A stretch of 33,280 bases of DNA from Mycoplasmatota bacterium (GTDB lineage Bacteria > Bacillota_I > Bacilli_A > Izemoplasmatales > Izemoplasmataceae): the NCBI GenBank assembly GCA_030600605.1, contig JAUVLT010000014.1, forward strand, positions 1 through 33,280, read 5' to 3'. A program made the translations under genes and the position numbers. Shown here in pieces: positions 11,715 through 22,512 of the stretch (positions within the stretch are counted from its first letter, which is position 1; every line of letters begins with the position of its first letter). Under the pieces are notes generated by a model. The model saw only the letters and a list, made by a program, of their open reading frames with translations. It ran no database searches and was not told the DNA's origin.

Positions 11715-12056
11715 CTATTTTTTTGGCAGGACTTTTTTTAATCCTTGTTCAATTCTATTTCCATAATCTAATGATTCATCATATTTAAATATTAAAACAG
11801 GACTTTTTCGCATTTGAACACGATGAGCTAATGTTGCTCTAATAAATGCTTTAGATCTATCTAGAGCTTTCTTAGCTGCTTCTTTTTTTGCATCTTGTCC
11901 AAGTATCGTATAAAAAACCGTCAAATAGCTTAAATCTTTAGTAAGTCTAACTTCAGTAATTGTGATAAATCCTATTGATTTATCTTTTACTTCTCGCATC
12001 AATATTTCGGATAAACTTCTTTGAATTGTGGATTCAAGTCTTAAATGTTTTGACAC
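11715..12056 (-). CDS. rbfA: Ribosome-binding factor A
   Basis: Small KH-fold factor that binds the 30S subunit and helps mature the 5' end of 16S rRNA, needed especially in the cold. The 113 residues are the family's usual size and include the typical IGFITITEVRLTKDLSYLTV and ALDRSKAFIRATLAHRVQMR segments. The start codon is GTG, and it overlaps the infB stop codon (TAGTG), so translation is probably coupled to infB. This is the conserved infB-rbfA gene order. Confidence 0.95.
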   Translation of the reverse strand: MSKHLRLESTIQRSLSEILMREVKDKSIGFITITEVRLTKDLSYLTVFYTILGQDAKKEAAKKALDRSKAFIRATLAHRVQMRKSPVLIFKYDESLDYGNRIEQGLKKVLPKK

Positions 12057-12859
12057 TATCTTTTCACTTCTCTTTCAACTGATGCTTCAATAACATCTCC
12101 ATTTTTAATATCATTAAATTTTTCAACCATAATTCCACATTCAAAGCCTTCACGTACTTCTTTTACATCATCTTTAAATCTTTTTAAAGATACCATTTTA
12201 CCTTCATAAATAACAATTCCTTCTCGAAGTATTCTAACCAAGCTGTTTCTTTCGATTGTTCCATCAGTTACATAGCATCCCGCTATTGTTCCAACTTTAG
12301 ATATTTTGAAAGTATCCCTAACTTCTGCTTGTCCAGTAACAATTTCTTCATATATTGGATCAAGCATACCTGTTAATGCTAATTCAATTTCTTCTAATGC
12401 TTTGTAAATAATATTATATAAACGAATTTCAACCTTTTTCTCTTTAGCATGGTTTCTAATTTCAGCCATTGGTCTTACATTAAATCCAATGATTATAGCT
12501 TGTGAAGCCAGTGCTAAAATTACGTCTGTTTCAGTAATAGTACCAACACTAGCACGAATAATATCAATTTTAGTACCTTCAATATCAATCTTTTCTAAAG
12601 ATGCTTTCAATGCTTCAATTGAACCGTGTGTATCACCTTTAATAATAATACGTAATTCTTTTTTCTCTCCTTCAGTCATCTGACTGAATAATTCATCAAG
12701 AGAAACTGATTTGCCTACTCCTCTTTCTTCTTTCCAAAAACGATGAGTTCTTTCTTCAGATATTAGTCTAGCTTTTCTTTCTTCAGTGAAGACCATAAAT
12801 GCGTCTCCTGCTTGAGGAACATCATTTAATCCAGTAACTTCGACTGCCAAACTAGGCAA
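12056..12859 (-). CDS. infB: Translation initiation factor IF-2, C-terminal part (downstream of a frameshift)
   Basis: This frame encodes the C-terminal half of IF-2: the end of domain II ([13 protein letters not shown]), domain III and the C-terminal domain that binds fMet-tRNA ([24 protein letters not shown]). It begins in the -1 frame relative to the upstream part, with only a TTG at 12859 as a possible start and no ribosome binding site, so it is unlikely to be an independent gene. Restoring one base near 12860-12876 joins both parts into a continuous IF-2 of about 610 residues with the family's spacing between VRAM and [16 protein letters not shown]-2 is essential, so a sequencing or assembly error is the simplest explanation. 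Confidence 0.88.
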
Positions 12860-13884
12860 TGCACTAATAAGTTTTTATTATTATCATCAACCATAGCACG
12901 TACTTTACCGAATGTGTTTCCAGCGACTAACACATCTCCAATTTTCAAAGTTCCATTAGCAACTAATAATGTTGCAATTGGTCCCTTTCCTTTGTCTAGT
13001 CTAGATTCAATAACAGTACCTGTAGCTAATCTATTTGGATTTGCTTTATATTCATTCATTTCAGCAGTAAGTTGAATCATTTCTAGTAAATTATCAACTC
13101 CATCACCTTTAAGAGCTGACACTTCACAAAAAATTGTATCTCCTCCCCATTCTTCGGGAATTAATTCAAATTCTGTAAGTTCTTGTTTTACTCTATCAGG
13201 GTTAACTCCATCTTTATCAATTTTGTTAACTGCGACAATAATTGGAACACCCGCAGCTTTAGAATGATCAATTGCTTCTTTGGTTTGAGGCATTACACCA
13301 TCATCTGCAGCTACAACTAAAATAGTAATATCAGTTACTTTTGCACCTCTAGCACGCATTTCAGTAAATGCTGCATGTCCAGGTGTATCAATAAAAGTAA
13401 TTAATTTCCCATTTTTCTCAACTTGATAAGCACCTATATGTTGAGTAATACCTCCAGCTTCTCCTTCAGTTACACGTGTATTTCTAATCGTATCTAAAAG
13501 AGTTGTTTTACCATGGTCTACATGTCCCATAATTGTAACAACAGGAGGTCTTTCAACTAAGTCATCTAAGTTATCTACGATTTCCATTTCCTCAAATCTT
13601 GTTAAATCTGTTTTAACTTTATCTTCTAAAGTGTATCCAAATTCCATTGCGATAACTTCAATAGTCTCGCGATCAACACTTTGATTTTGAGCCGCCATAA
13701 TTCCTAGTACCATTAGTTTTTTTATTACCGCAGCTGAACTAACATTTAATCCTTCTGCAACTTCTGCTACTGTCATATCATTAAAGAAATATAATACCCC
13801 TTCAATGTTCGTCTCTTGTATTTGAGGAATGTTTGCTTTTCTTGTATCAATTTTTTTAGTTTTTTTGATGTTTTTCTTAGCCAT
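12826..13884 (-). CDS. infB: Translation initiation factor IF-2, N-terminal and GTPase part (ends at a frameshift)
   Basis: GTPase that delivers initiator tRNA to the 30S subunit. This part holds the short N-terminal IF2_N domain (about residues 25-80), the G domain with GHVDHGKTT (P loop), DTPGHAAF (G3) and NKID (G4), and the start of domain II. The ATG at 13884 is chosen because GAGGTGA precedes it by 6 bases; the TTG one codon earlier is not needed. After [11 protein letters not shown] the frame runs into about a dozen unrelated residues and a TAA, while the true continuation lies in the -1 frame. The gene sits in the standard nusA operon between ylxQ and rbfA. Confidence 0.9.
12860..12876 (-). 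other. infB: Frameshift site in infB
   Basis: The IF-2 frame changes here. On the coding strand the sequence is AATAAAAACTTATTAGTGCA; adding one base after AAAAAC restores the expected protein. The A5 tract suggests a homopolymer read error or true polymerase slippage. The heptamer T AAA AAC is not a canonical -1 recoding site, because re-pairing of the P-site lysine tRNA on TAA would fail. Confidence 0.75.
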
Positions 13885-13902
13885 CAAAAATCACCTCTTT
13901 CT

Positions 13903-14208
13903 TTAGGAATCTAGATATTCTATAAATTTATCAATAAATCCCTTATCCGAAACTAATATTACTTTGCGATTGTCTTTTCCAATTGCATTTGATAATTCAA
14001 ATGTTGTTAGTAAATCAATCAACTTAACATCATAATAATTAGTTTTCTTTATAATTTTATTTTTTATATTCTCACCAGCATCACTTGCCAAAAACACTAA
14101 GTTATACTCGTTTTTAGAAAGTGCATTTAAGACAAATTCTTCACCTAACACTATTTTTCTAGCTCGATATGCTAATCCTAATAAATTAAGTATCTTTTGT
14201 TTATTCAT
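13903..14208 (-). CDS. ylxQ: L7Ae/YlxQ-family RNA-binding protein
   Basis: A small protein of the L7Ae/L30e/S12e fold (101 residues from the ATG at 14208), related to kink-turn binding proteins. The family core is visible (LLGLAYRARKIVLGEE, YNLVFLASDAGENIKNKI, and a central IGK). The start overlaps the end of ylxR (ATGAATAA), indicating coupled translation; a TTG two codons upstream is less likely. It lies in the conserved position between ylxR and infB. Its exact RNA target in bacteria is not settled. Confidence 0.9.
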   Translation of the reverse strand: MNKQKILNLLGLAYRARKIVLGEEFVLNALSKNEYNLVFLASDAGENIKNKIIKKTNYYDVKLIDLLTTFELSNAIGKDNRKVILVSDKGFIDKFIEYLDS

Positions 14209-14467
14209 TTTCAAAAAGATTTAGTAAATCTGTATAGATTGTTTCTGGAATAGAAACTTCTAAATGACGATCAAGTTTTTTTGACTTTTGAGCCTTTAAG
14301 ATAACTTTCTTATCTTTTTTTAGATAGGCACCTCGTCCATTTAGTTTCCCAGATAAATCAACACTTACAAGACCCTCTTTATTTTTTACAACTCTAATCA
14401 ATTCTTTTTTAGGAAGTTTCTCATTTGTAATTATGCATTTTCTTAAAGGGATTTTATGTTGTTTCAC
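14201..14467 (-). CDS. ylxR: YlxR-family RNA-binding/nucleoid-associated protein
   Basis: 88-residue YlxR (DUF448) protein with the family core RKCIITNEKLPKKELIRVV and GRGAYL. Homologues bind RNA and have been linked to transcriptional control in Bacillus. The start appears to be GTG, overlapping the 3' end of nusA by 14 bases, and the 3' end overlaps ylxQ, so the three genes are tightly coupled. Confidence 0.92.
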   Translation of the reverse strand: MKQHKIPLRKCIITNEKLPKKELIRVVKNKEGLVSVDLSGKLNGRGAYLKKDKKVILKAQKSKKLDRHLEVSIPETIYTDLLNLFENE

Positions 14468-15533
14468 TATCTAACCTGCGGTATCTAATTCCTTCTTCTT
14501 TTGCTTGAGAAATTGATTTAATTTCAATCTTCCATCCACTTGATTGAGCTGCCAATTTTGCATTTTGACCTCTGACACCAATTGCTGCGGTTAAGTCTTT
14601 GTCCTTTACAATTACGAGAGCTTGCTTTTTCTTTTTATCAGGATTAATAGCAATTATTCTTGCTGGTTCCATTGCACTTGTAATTAATTCGATAGGCTTA
14701 GCAGACCATCTATAAATATCAATTCTTTCACCTTGTAAGGCTTCTAAAACCTCTAAAATTCTAGAACCTTTATATCCGACTACTGCTCCAACAGGATCAA
14801 CATTTGAATCGTGTGAGTAAACTGCGACTTTCGATCTATCTCCTGGGTCTCTTGCGATTCCCATTATTTCAACTGTTCCATCAGCAATTTCAGGACATAC
14901 TTGTTCAATTAGTCTTTTAACTAAATTTTTATCTGTTCTAGAAACAAATACTTTTGGTCCTTTGGTAGTCATCTCTACTTTTGTTATATACACTTTTAGA
15001 CGTGCATCAATACGAGTATCATCACTTTTAAGTAATTCTTTTCTTGGTAAACTAGTTTCTAGGTTTTGCCCTAAATCAAGTGTTACGAAATCTTTATTCA
15101 AAGCAACGATTTGGGTTGTAATCATTTCGTTTTCTTTTTCTTTGAAAACATCATATGCTTTTTCTCTTTCAAGTTGTTTTAATCCTTGAGTTAAAATTTG
15201 CTTAGCAGATGAAGCTGCGATTCTACCAAAATCTTTGATTTTTTCTTTTATTGTAATAACATCTCCTAGTTTTGCGCTCTTTCTTCTCTTTTTAGCCATA
15301 GCTAATGATATTTCACCAGGATTTAAAACTTCTTCTACAACTACATATTCAGCTGAAAGCATGATTTCATTTTTGTCTTCATTAAAATCAATACGAGCAT
15401 TTTCAGATGTGTTATGCACTTTTTTATAAGCATTCAATATCCCTCTACCCATTATTTCTAAAATCTTTTCTTTTTCAAGTCCTCTATCTAAAGCAATTAA
15501 ATCTAATGCTTTAAAGAAATCTTTACTAATCAT
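14454..15533 (-). CDS. nusA: Transcription termination/antitermination factor NusA
   Basis: RNA polymerase-binding factor that promotes pausing and intrinsic termination. The 359 residues contain the N-terminal polymerase-binding domain (about 1-125), an S1 domain (about 130-200), and two KH domains (about 230-345, with GDRSKVAVYS and AIGVRGQNAKLAA). As in other Firmicutes, the C-terminal acidic repeats of E. coli NusA are missing. A strong AGGAGG lies before the ATG. The operon leader carries an intrinsic terminator that could let NusA control its own synthesis. Confidence 0.96.
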   Translation of the reverse strand: MISKDFFKALDLIALDRGLEKEKILEIMGRGILNAYKKVHNTSENARIDFNEDKNEIMLSAEYVVVEEVLNPGEISLAMAKKRRKSAKLGDVITIKEKIKDFGRIAASSAKQILTQGLKQLEREKAYDVFKEKENEMITTQIVALNKDFVTLDLGQNLETSLPRKELLKSDDTRIDARLKVYITKVEMTTKGPKVFVSRTDKNLVKRLIEQVCPEIADGTVEIMGIARDPGDRSKVAVYSHDSNVDPVGAVVGYKGSRILEVLEALQGERIDIYRWSAKPIELITSAMEPARIIAINPDKKKKQALVIVKDKDLTAAIGVRGQNAKLAAQSSGWKIEIKSISQAKEEGIRYRRLDSETT

Positions 15534-15544
15534 TTTTGTTCCTC

Positions 15545-15973
15545 CTAAAAGATGATAGTTAGTCTTATATAAGACACATCAATATAATTAATTTTTATTG
15601 TTTTATTTCTAAATGTAATTTCAATAACATTATCAACAAAAGATACTAATGTACCTTCTAAAGCTTGTTCTATTGTTTTGACAAAAACTGTTTTACCAAT
15701 CGCTCTTTTTATTTCTTCACTGTTTCTAAGTTCTCTCTCAGCACCAGATGAAGAAACTTCTAAATTATAAGCATCTGTAAAAGGATCTAATATATCAAGT
15801 TCTTCACTTAAAACATGTGATACTTTTACACAGTCATCAATATCAATAAATGTGTTATTCTCAATAAAAACTTTTAACACATAATCGCCATTCTCTTTTT
15901 CATAAATTACATCATATAAGTAGTATCCTAAATCTTCAATAAGTTCTTTAAATCTTATTTTTAGTTTCTCCAT
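15545..15973 (-). CDS. rimP: Ribosome maturation factor RimP
   Basis: 30S assembly factor needed for binding of S12 and neighbours to 16S rRNA. The protein has 142 residues, slightly short for the family (about 150), with the typical YLYDVIYEKENGDYVLKVFIE and EVSSSGAERELR segments. AAGGAGA lies 7-8 bases before the ATG. It is the first gene of the nusA-infB operon, and a terminator lies immediately upstream of its ribosome binding site. Confidence 0.94.
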   Translation of the reverse strand: MEKLKIRFKELIEDLGYYLYDVIYEKENGDYVLKVFIENNTFIDIDDCVKVSHVLSEELDILDPFTDAYNLEVSSSGAERELRNSEEIKRAIGKTVFVKTIEQALEGTLVSFVDNVIEITFRNKTIKINYIDVSYIRLTIIF

Positions 15974-15990
15974 ATAATCATCTCCTTTTA

Positions 15991-16022
15991 AATAAAAAAA
16001 GGGTGGGTTTGACCCACTCTCT
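15991..16022 (-). terminator. Leader terminator (attenuator) of the rimP-nusA operon
   Basis: On the minus strand GTGGGT CAA ACCCAC forms a 6-bp GC-rich stem, extended by further pairs after one mismatch, and is followed by a run of seven T (15994-16000). It lies between a good promoter (16040-16068) and the rimP ribosome binding site (15982-15986), with no room for another promoter in between. All operon transcription from that promoter must therefore read through it. Such leader terminators mediate NusA autoregulation in Bacillus. Confidence 0.75.
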
Positions 16023-16039
16023 AACTCATATGCATTAGT

Positions 16040-16068
16040 ATTTTATCACAATAAAAACTAAAAATCAA
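16040..16068 (-). promoter_or_regulatory. Promoter of the rimP-nusA-infB operon
   Basis: On the minus strand TTGATT (16063-16068) and TAAAAT (16040-16045) are exactly 17 bases apart. Transcription would start near 16033, giving a leader of about 60 nucleotides that contains the terminator at 15991-16022. Confidence 0.7.
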
Positions 16069-16145
16069 GCAACTTAAATAATTATATATCTACTAAATAA
16101 TTATATATTATATTTATTAATACCCTTTTGTGAAAATTGGATAAT

Positions 16146-16859
16146 TTAAAAAGGTAATCGACTCACATAATGCATGATTATACTTCCAGCAACCCCGACA
16201 TTTAAACTATCAACATCGTTCGTTCTAATTGTAATATTATTAGTTGTTTTATTAAGTATTTTTGATGTTAAACCTTGTCCTTCATTTCCTAAAATAATCG
16301 CAAGCTCTTTTTGAATTCTAATTTTTTCTAAAGGTATTCCGTCTAATGCCGTCCCATAGACTATATATTCTGGATACTCATTAATAAAATCAACTGCCTT
16401 CATTTCTAAAATATTTAAATAAAACATTGCACCTTGGGTACCTCTAATAACTTTATCATTATATAGATCAACTGTATTATCTAAAATTACAGTATTAAAT
16501 TCAAAAGCAAGTGCACTTCTTAGAAGTGTACCTAAATTGCCAGGATCTTGAATTCCTGCAAGTATCAAAACTTTATTAGTAATATCTTTGTTCTTTAATT
16601 TATGACAAACACATAAAACTTTTTGGGGACTCTTTGTTTTAGCAAGTTTAGTTAAAACCTGGTTTGTAACGTAAAAAACATTATCACCCTTAATTGATTT
16701 ATCTGTTGTGAAAATGTATTTAATAATATCAAATTTACTTGCTTCTTCAAACAAATGATATCCTTCAACTATAAAGAGATTAAACATATCACGATATTTT
16801 TTCTGATGTAATTTTAAAGCATCTTTAACTAAAGGATTATTAACGCTAGTGATTTCCAT
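16146..16859 (-). CDS. SpoU/TrmH-family RNA 2'-O-methyltransferase
   Basis: S-adenosylmethionine-dependent rRNA or tRNA ribose methyltransferase with the SPOUT trefoil knot. The N-terminal substrate-binding part (MEITSVNNPLVKDALKLHQKK) is followed by the three SpoU motifs: GIQDPGNLGTLLRSA, AIILGNEGQGL and SLNVGVAGSIIMHY. The start is placed at 16859 because AAGGAGGTGAG lies just upstream; longer frames ignore it. The protein then has 237 residues. It resembles RlmB/YsgA-type enzymes, but the target nucleotide cannot be told. A TATAAT at 16878-16883 could be its -10 box. Confidence 0.9.
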   Translation of the reverse strand: MEITSVNNPLVKDALKLHQKKYRDMFNLFIVEGYHLFEEASKFDIIKYIFTTDKSIKGDNVFYVTNQVLTKLAKTKSPQKVLCVCHKLKNKDITNKVLILAGIQDPGNLGTLLRSALAFEFNTVILDNTVDLYNDKVIRGTQGAMFYLNILEMKAVDFINEYPEYIVYGTALDGIPLEKIRIQKELAIILGNEGQGLTSKILNKTTNNITIRTNDVDSLNVGVAGSIIMHYVSRLPF

Positions 16860-21275: not shown

Positions 21276-21320
21276 AATAAACATAATGGTTGACATTATA
21301 TAATACCTTCTATATACTAT
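21276..21320 (+). promoter_or_regulatory. Strong promoter, copy A (upstream of the 59-codon ORF)
   Basis: TTGACA (21290-21295), 17 bases, TATACT (21313-21318). The 45-base segment matches the rpsD promoter segment 21698-21742 at 37 positions, including AATAAACA upstream of the -35 box and most of the spacer, which indicates a shared origin. Transcription would start near 21325. Confidence 0.75.
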
Positions 21321-21697: not shown

Positions 21698-21742
21698 AAT
21701 AAACAATTTGATTGACATTTTATAATACATTATATATAATAT
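21698..21742 (+). promoter_or_regulatory. rpsD promoter (copy B)
   Basis: TTGACA (21712-21717), 17 bases, TATAAT (21735-21740): both boxes match the consensus perfectly. Transcription would start near 21747, giving a leader of about 165 nucleotides before the rpsD ATG. The leader contains possible pairing segments such as GCAG near 21764 and CTGC near 21792. Confidence 0.85.
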
Positions 21743-21912
21743 ATGTTGCGCATGTGTAATAAAGGCAGCTAAATAATGAATTTTATTAACTGCTGAATGT
21801 TCCAAAAAGGTTTGATAGTAATCTCTGCTGACGAGGTGAAATCATTAAAACATTCTGACTAATGAATCGTTATTACTCTTTACGCAAAAATAAAATAAAG
21901 GAGGAATACAAT

Positions 21913-22512
21913 ATGGCACGTTATACAGGACCAAGTTGGAAAATTGCAAGACGTTTAAAATATTCAATTACTGAAACCGGAAAAGAACTAGCTAGACGCC
22001 CTTACTCTCCAGGACAACACGGACAAAGAAGAACAAAAATAAGTGAGTACGGAGTGCAACTTCAAGAAAAACAAAAAGTTAGATACACTTACGGATTAAA
22101 CGAAAAGCAATTTAAGAAAACTTTTAACGAAGCAAAGAAAATGCATGGTAAACAAGGTGAAAGTTTCTTAATATTACTTGAATCAAGATTAGATAACTTA
22201 GTTTACAGAGCAGGATTTGCTAAAACTCGTCGTCAAGCAAGACAACTTGTAAATCATGGACATGTTTATGTTGAAGGAAGAAGAGTTGATATTCCATCAT
22301 ACAGAGTAGTTCCAGGACAAACTTTCACACTCAGTGAAAAAGCAAGAAAATTCGATATCGTATTAAACAGCTTAGAAGCTGTCGTTACGAGATTAGAATT
22401 TGTTAGCTTCGATGAAAACAAGTTTGAAGTTACTTACATAAGATTCCCTGAAAGACAAGAAGTCTTAACGGAAATCAAAGAAAACCTAATCGTAGAATAT
22501 TACAACAGATAA
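21913..22512 (+). CDS. rpsD: 30S ribosomal protein S4
   Basis: Primary 16S rRNA-binding protein that nucleates 30S assembly. From the ATG at 21913 it has 199 residues, the normal size, with the N-terminal MARYTGPSWKIARRL, the YSPGQHGQ loop and the S4 RNA-binding domain (LESRLDNLVYRAGFAKTRRQARQLVNHGHV, about residues 88-117). AAAGGAGG at 21897-21904 fixes this start; a longer frame from 21862 is not needed. It is monocistronic, with a perfect consensus promoter and a strong terminator. The leader of about 165 bases is long enough for the autogenous S4-mRNA control known for Bacillus rpsD, but I could not establish the fold. Confidence 0.97.
   Translation: MARYTGPSWKIARRLKYSITETGKELARRPYSPGQHGQRRTKISEYGVQLQEKQKVRYTYGLNEKQFKKTFNEAKKMHGKQGESFLILLESRLDNLVYRAGFAKTRRQARQLVNHGHVYVEGRRVDIPSYRVVPGQTFTLSEKARKFDIVLNSLEAVVTRLEFVSFDENKFEVTYIRFPERQEVLTEIKENLIVEYYNR

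Follow-up and report, generated by a model that had tools for sequence, protein, structure and literature searches.

The rimP-nusA-ylxR-L7Ae-infB-rbfA operon of this Mycoplasmatota bacterium is probably controlled by an attenuator that lies close to its promoter and belongs to the published rimP-leader group, and at which NusA most likely raises termination. The leader comprises a promoter, a hairpin and a T tract, lies on the operon's own transcript, is conserved among relatives in a single copy per genome, and has been retained with nusA in genomes from which rimP is missing. It had originally been predicted from the window (the whole stretch of DNA analysed, 33,280 nucleotides of contig JAUVLT010000014.1), and that prediction had missed that the leader already has a name, occurs widely and is not peculiar to this genome. 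Taken singly, the finding is ordinary, since it confirms, in a low-GC lineage not studied before, a leader that was already known. More is gained from the comparison, in which genomes where rimP and nusA lie apart test the conservation-based idea that NusA is the effector.

Anatomy of the leader and proposed mechanism

All the parts named in the original prediction were found on the minus strand within 15982-16068 (Table 1), in the order promoter, GAGUGGGUCAAACCCACCC-U7 and rimP ribosome-binding site. The TTGATT-17-TAAAAT promoter was recovered, with an extended -10. A hairpin with a T7 tract does follow it, but the expected spacing of about 15 nt did not hold: the hairpin begins 20 nt past the -10, or about 14 nt past the predicted +1. 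The T7 tract ends at 15994, 20 nt from the rimP ATG, and AAAAGGAG begins soon after it, at 15989, as anticipated. The predicted leader length of 60 nt agrees with the earlier estimate. A sequence scan for promoter-like sites between the hairpin and the rimP start codon returned none, in line with the earlier claim that no promoter separates the terminator from rimP. Together with its flanking pairs, the hairpin had a computed folding energy of -9.8 kcal/mol. Terminator-like sites numbered 5 in 8 kb, compared with 1.8 +/- 1.3 in shuffles.

Table 1. Parts of the leader and genes of the operon in the window
Feature	Position	Strand	Details
Promoter	16040..16068	-	TTGATT starting 16068, spacer 17 nt, extended -10 TGaTAAAAT
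Extended -10 TGATAAAAT	16048-16040	-	
Predicted +1 (G)	16033	-	7 nt past -10
Conserved 5′ box GCAUAUGAGUUAG (also written GCATATGAGTTAG)	16021..16033	-	predicted +1 to +13
Terminator hairpin GAGTGGGTCAAACCCACCC	16001..16019	-	GAGUGGG-UCAAA-CCCACCC, 7-bp stem, one A.C mismatch
T7 tract	15994..16000	-	directly after hairpin; predicted release point about 34-40 nt past +1
rimP ribosome-binding site AAAAGGAG	15982..15989	-	
rimP start codon (ATG)	15973	-	
rimP (ribosome maturation factor, first gene of the operon)	15545..15973	-	Pfam RimP_N 6.6e-22
nusA	14454..15533	-	Pfam NusA_N 2.2e-27, KH_5 1.9e-23
ylxR	14201..14467	-	Pfam YlxR 1.6e-27
L7Ae-family (ylxQ-like) gene	13903..14214	-	Pfam Ribosomal_L7Ae 9.4e-8
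infB (IF2)	12056..13887	-	Pfam IF2_N, GTP_EFTU, IF-2 on 12826-13887 + 12056-12859
rbfA	11715..12056	-	Pfam RBFA 1.5e-32

A second candidate promoter, TTCACA-16-TATAAT (11/12 match), was identified further upstream at 16134-16107. Since it also precedes the hairpin, its transcripts would cross the terminator too. No counterpart of this promoter was seen by eye in the listed relatives' leaders. The gene preceding the leader encodes a SpoU-type methyltransferase (Pfam) and is read in the same direction. Within the operon, the essential infB is split over two overlapping frames (overlap near 12826-12859, minus strand), as if by a small indel, and a sequencing error in the draft genome is the likeliest cause.

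The start site, the actual termination and its control by NusA are inferred. RNA polymerase would start at about 16033 and make a 13-nt single-stranded stretch, then the GC-rich hairpin and U7. Some polymerases would stop after about 40 nt, while the remainder would read on into rimP and nusA. NusA, bound near the RNA exit channel, would most likely raise the stopped fraction, such that high NusA would lower the expression of its own operon. Terminators dependent on NusA and NusG have suboptimal hairpins and interrupted U tracts, according to the available part of PMC8060035. As the stem in the window is mismatched but its U7 is uninterrupted, neither efficiency nor NusA dependence can be read from the sequence.

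Conservation and wider occurrence of the leader

Conservation of the hairpin upstream of rimP in relatives, which the original prediction had proposed as a check, was assessed with a covariance model built from 26 of 34 family leaders (those with a 6-nt loop), with the window's own leader not among the 26 rows. The model had one strong match per genome in 42 of the 49 family genomes (E <= 0.0011; next-best match E 0.046). These were the same 42 genomes in which rimP was found, and the 7 negative genomes were the 7 without a rimP. All but one of the 42 matches were just upstream of rimP; the remaining match (G033) was on another contig, and the rimP of this genome starts at contig base 4. The window's leader scored 50.4 bits (E 3.9e-8 for the genome) and was the only match there at E <= 1. 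Searches with the Rfam cis-regulatory families gave no gathering-score match in the window, and the matches at 15900-16200 all fell below the cut-off. Among same-class rimP loci with upstream DNA, all 51 had a terminator within 220 nt upstream.

The promoter, hairpin and U tract are visible by eye at the same place in the relatives' leaders. The promoter layout (a 17-nt spacer and TG before the -10) was recovered automatically in 26 of the 34 family leaders; in the other 8 the automatic search chose another site, and by eye these appear to share the common layout. The terminator lies on the operon's own leader, as predicted, in the window and in 44 aligned relatives, given the predicted start site. 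Of the 44 leaders, one that duplicated another over the aligned region was omitted from the alignment, and L027, which has no upstream DNA, was excluded from later counts. The upstream gene varies among the relatives (SpoU-type, acetyltransferase-like or a polC-like end, from protein ends read by eye), and the leader persists.

In all 44 family and order leaders the 5′ arm reads GAG(U/A)(G/C)GG and the loop begins with UC or CC. The 7-bp stem was fully paired in 40 of them, the four exceptions, each with a single A.C mismatch, being those of the window's species and of three sister species. Pairing-preserving changes were detected at pair 4 (U-A in 19 leaders, U-G in 15, A-U in 10) and pair 5 (G-C in 43, C-G in 1). 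Covariation within the family is thin, with two-sided changes at 1 of 8 pairs, a level reached by 21 of 500 shuffles. The arms are nearly invariant within the family, and support for the pairing therefore comes mainly from comparison across families. The consensus fold of 31 of the 34 family leaders (L007, L024 and L038 were left out) contained the terminator helix only, and no antiterminator or competing helix. The four leaders with the A.C mismatch (window 16001-16019, L002, L003 and L004) also have a longer U tract than other family members, possibly a compensated change.

Across all the sets of loci combined, 165 had rimP adjacent to nusA, and in 162 of these a terminator was found in the 220 nt before rimP. 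Control windows taken from these loci had one in 49 of 748 cases. The finder accepts any terminator within that distance, and some of the 162 may be hairpins of another kind. Among these 165 loci, 92 had the GTGGG-type arm and 104 the strict GGG..CCC core. Among the 80 named loci located through NusA, a rimP ORF was recognisable in 73; 71 of these had a terminator within the same 220-nt stretch and 45 a GTGGG-type arm. The other seven comprised five verrucomicrobial loci, which were assigned to the group without rimP, L114, which was assigned to the adjacent group, and L089, which lies at a contig start and was dropped. L155, which has a fragmentary nusA and a rimP-like ORF upstream, was left out of the counts. 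The loci missed by the terminator rule were L125, L128, L170, L175 and L129; a hairpin with a poor U tract is present in L125, and a hairpin is discernible by eye in L175. In lactobacilli-type leaders, GAGTGAGC..GCTCACTC takes the place of the GTGGG-type arm. Taxon names of relatives beyond those given in record titles are inferred. In family f13 (L134, L135, L137 and L139-L145) rimP appears to encode an N-terminal domain alone (about 75-90 aa), and the leader terminator is kept.

A search for further sites with the pattern GAGTGGGN{3,10}CCCRCTCTTT returned 40 matches in 35 of 198 class genomes, four of them the opposite strand of palindromes. Of the 36 distinct sites, 35 were rimP leaders, an assignment made mostly by coordinates (one contig end by eye, G183 via its nusA locus, and three sites checked individually), and one was a 3′ terminator. 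No regulon sharing the hairpin motif was thus found among the 198 class genomes. The window's own genome was missed by this pattern because of its CCCACCC arm. The exceptional site (G077:C59, L210 at about 1501-1522) is an ordinary 3′ terminator following an infC-rpmI-rplT-like operon, whose genes were identified by eye.

Genomes in which rimP and nusA lie apart

Were rimP the controlled gene, or RimP the regulator, one would expect the leader to travel with rimP. A terminator was found at 14 of the 16 nusA genes without an adjacent rimP, but at none of the six relocated rimP genes. The latter come from six genomes of a single genus (f6; mollicute-like, with TGA inside frames), where rimP is far from nusA, and they may represent one event. 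Five of the six nusA genes in this genus have the terminator upstream, and the sixth (L175) has a weaker hairpin recognised by eye. The 14 also include two f18 and three f17 genomes, in which rimP was not found, and four of the five verrucomicrobial loci. Because these genomes are interrelated, the counts represent few independent events, with the Verrucomicrobia, the f6 genus and the f17/f18 cases as a minimum.

The verrucomicrobial case was extended to 57 genomes (G233 and G238-G293) of the class around the verrucomicrobial MAG behind L097. None of the 57 had a RimP_N match over the cut-off in a profile search that was positive in 10 of 14 control genomes. Six of the 57 had sub-cut-off matches, each of them within a frame 309 to 1138 aa long. 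These profile results suggest that RimP has been lost across the entire class. Loci were available and scored in 30 of the 57 genomes: 28 nusA leaders had a terminator (L247 and L257 did not) and 14 had the GTGGG-type arm, compared with 12 of 120 control windows. Right after a simple deletion of rimP the promoter and leader would still be in place, and the weight is therefore on this long, class-wide retention and not on single losses.

The gene infB follows nusA in 155 of the 158 loci with enough sequence. In L120, one apparent exception, an IF2-like start runs into what seems to be a chimeric contig. Since infB is nearly always found after nusA, the comparison parts nusA-infB from rimP, not nusA from infB. 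The gene distribution supports nusA, or nusA-infB, as the controlled gene rather than rimP. In the available parts of the literature searched, which included few subscription papers, we saw no mention of a leader retained with nusA in genomes that lack rimP.

Published leaders and alternative explanations

The window's leader belongs to a kind already described, and its short length is not new either. The rimP-leader was named by Naville & Gautheret in 2010, with NusA proposed as the effector (PMC2965389). As described in the available text of that paper, it is a short terminator with a G-rich 5′ arm, a C-rich 3′ arm and a T stretch, placed directly upstream of rimP-nusA-infB, and neither it nor the window's leader has a visible antiterminator or a larger riboswitch-like fold (PMC2965389). 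The gap of 20 nt in the window falls within the 4 to 130 nt given there between terminator and gene. The GGG...CCC core with its T stretch, part of the published description (PMC2965389), is present as GAGTGGG..CCCACCC-T7, and rimP is the first gene of the window's rimP-nusA-infB operon by Pfam and coordinates. The motif is printed as GGGc...gCCC (PMC2965389), whereas the window has GGGU...ACCC, with U-A in place of the lower-case pair, and the family has GGGU or GGGC and a variable loop. We read the lower-case letters as not strictly defining, a reading of our own that the available text of PMC2965389 does not state. The window also differs from the published leader in that its hairpin starts only about 14 nt past the predicted +1 and in its 13-nt 5′ box, which is conserved in the window's family and absent from the published motif.

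The window (with its predicted start site) shares with the B. subtilis type a terminator that follows the operon promoter and is part of the operon's leader. The primary paper on NusA autoregulation in B. subtilis is reportedly Mondal et al. 2016. In a review, of which part was available, NusA-stimulated termination in the leader of its own operon in B. subtilis is stated to have been experimentally shown (PMC12288461). The B. subtilis leader is longer, 180 nt according to the available text of PMC2965389, compared with the 60 nt predicted here. In the gbs0413-gbs0418 leader of Streptococcus agalactiae, as far as the accessible part of PMC4448216 describes it, termination occurs 31 nt past the start site (mapped ends) and NusA feedback has been proposed. 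Both leaders precede a rimP-nusA-infB-rbfA operon and terminate, or are predicted to terminate, very near the start site; the S. agalactiae short RNA was detected by RNA-seq (PMC4448216), whereas that of the window is predicted from sequence. NusA represses its own operon in E. coli (PMC2965389), where the available text of PMC6511841 places terminators t1/t2 upstream of rimP in the metY-rimP-nusA-infB operon. The position of terminators between promoter and rimP is shared with the window, and the E. coli operon differs in its tRNA gene, several promoters and RNase III sites (PMC6511841). For the present organism, NusA feedback would follow by analogy from the published explanation for the element.

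The hairpin could instead be an ordinary 3′ terminator of the SpoU-type methyltransferase gene, with the operon promoter overlapping it by chance or lying elsewhere. This gene is codirectional and ends 125 nt before the hairpin, and its read-through would stop there too. We nevertheless consider this origin improbable, as a well-formed, conserved promoter lies between the gene and the hairpin and none lies past it, and as the same hairpin and spacing occur behind different upstream genes in relatives. The leader terminator, 26 nt before rimP, is moreover the sole intergenic minus-strand terminator in the window that has no same-strand stop codon in the roughly 50 nt before it; the others range from 4 nt inside to 47 nt after such a stop. 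Still less credible, to the point of being nearly dismissed, is a leader micro-ORF (AUG NGU UAG) or a fold masking the Shine-Dalgarno sequence as the true switch, with the hairpin merely assisting. The box pattern [GA]CA[TA]ATGnGTTAG was present at the predicted +1 in 31 of the 34 family leaders (L001-L043 set), each of which accordingly contains AUG-nGU-UAG. However, the AUG is too near the predicted 5′ end to leave space for a ribosome-binding site before it, the box varies at a single base, which falls on a first codon position (S, C or G), unlike the pattern of coding sequence, and the frame is lost in the related family f3. The micro-ORF was ruled out on the variable first codon position and its absence in f3. 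When the window's leader is folded alone, CCUUUU pairs with the AAAAGG of the ribosome-binding site, but this masking or antiterminator fold, confined to the single-sequence fold, was also rejected because its pairs are gone from the 31-leader consensus fold.

An attenuator governed by RimP, the L7Ae-family protein, IF2 or transcription speed (NusG, nucleotides) in place of NusA is unlikely, if somewhat less so than the upstream-gene origin. The sequence of the 5′ arm and the loop start is conserved beyond the needs of pairing, a pattern compatible with any RNA-binding protein; infB nearly always comes after nusA; and NusG also drives weak terminators in B. subtilis, as reported in the available text of PMC8060035. 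As a general regulator RimP is an improbable choice, given the 57 class genomes without a RimP_N match over the cut-off and a leader that does not move with rimP. NusA autoregulation through leader termination is, by contrast, stated as established in B. subtilis (available part of PMC12288461). We favour NusA as the protein acting on this attenuator.

A further reading, which we hold less likely than not, is that the rimP-leader is an ancient nusA element independent of rimP. It would then serve NusA homeostasis wherever it persists, both in the verrucomicrobial genomes that have no recognisable RimP and in the mollicute-like ones with a moved rimP, and in the window's family the 13-nt box would be RNA read by NusA or by NusA-loaded polymerase as the hairpin forms. 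If so, termination within 40 nt would report the speed of NusA loading after promoter escape. What deserves following up is the 5′ box peculiar to the family, together with the rimP-free leaders, and leaders as compact as about 40 nt would allow NusA action at a promoter-proximal terminator to be studied on very short templates. Elsewhere in the window, a perfect TTGACA-17-TATAAT promoter was present on the plus strand at 21712-21740, about 120 nt upstream of the plus-strand ORF 21862-22512, and another strong promoter was located at 21290-21318.
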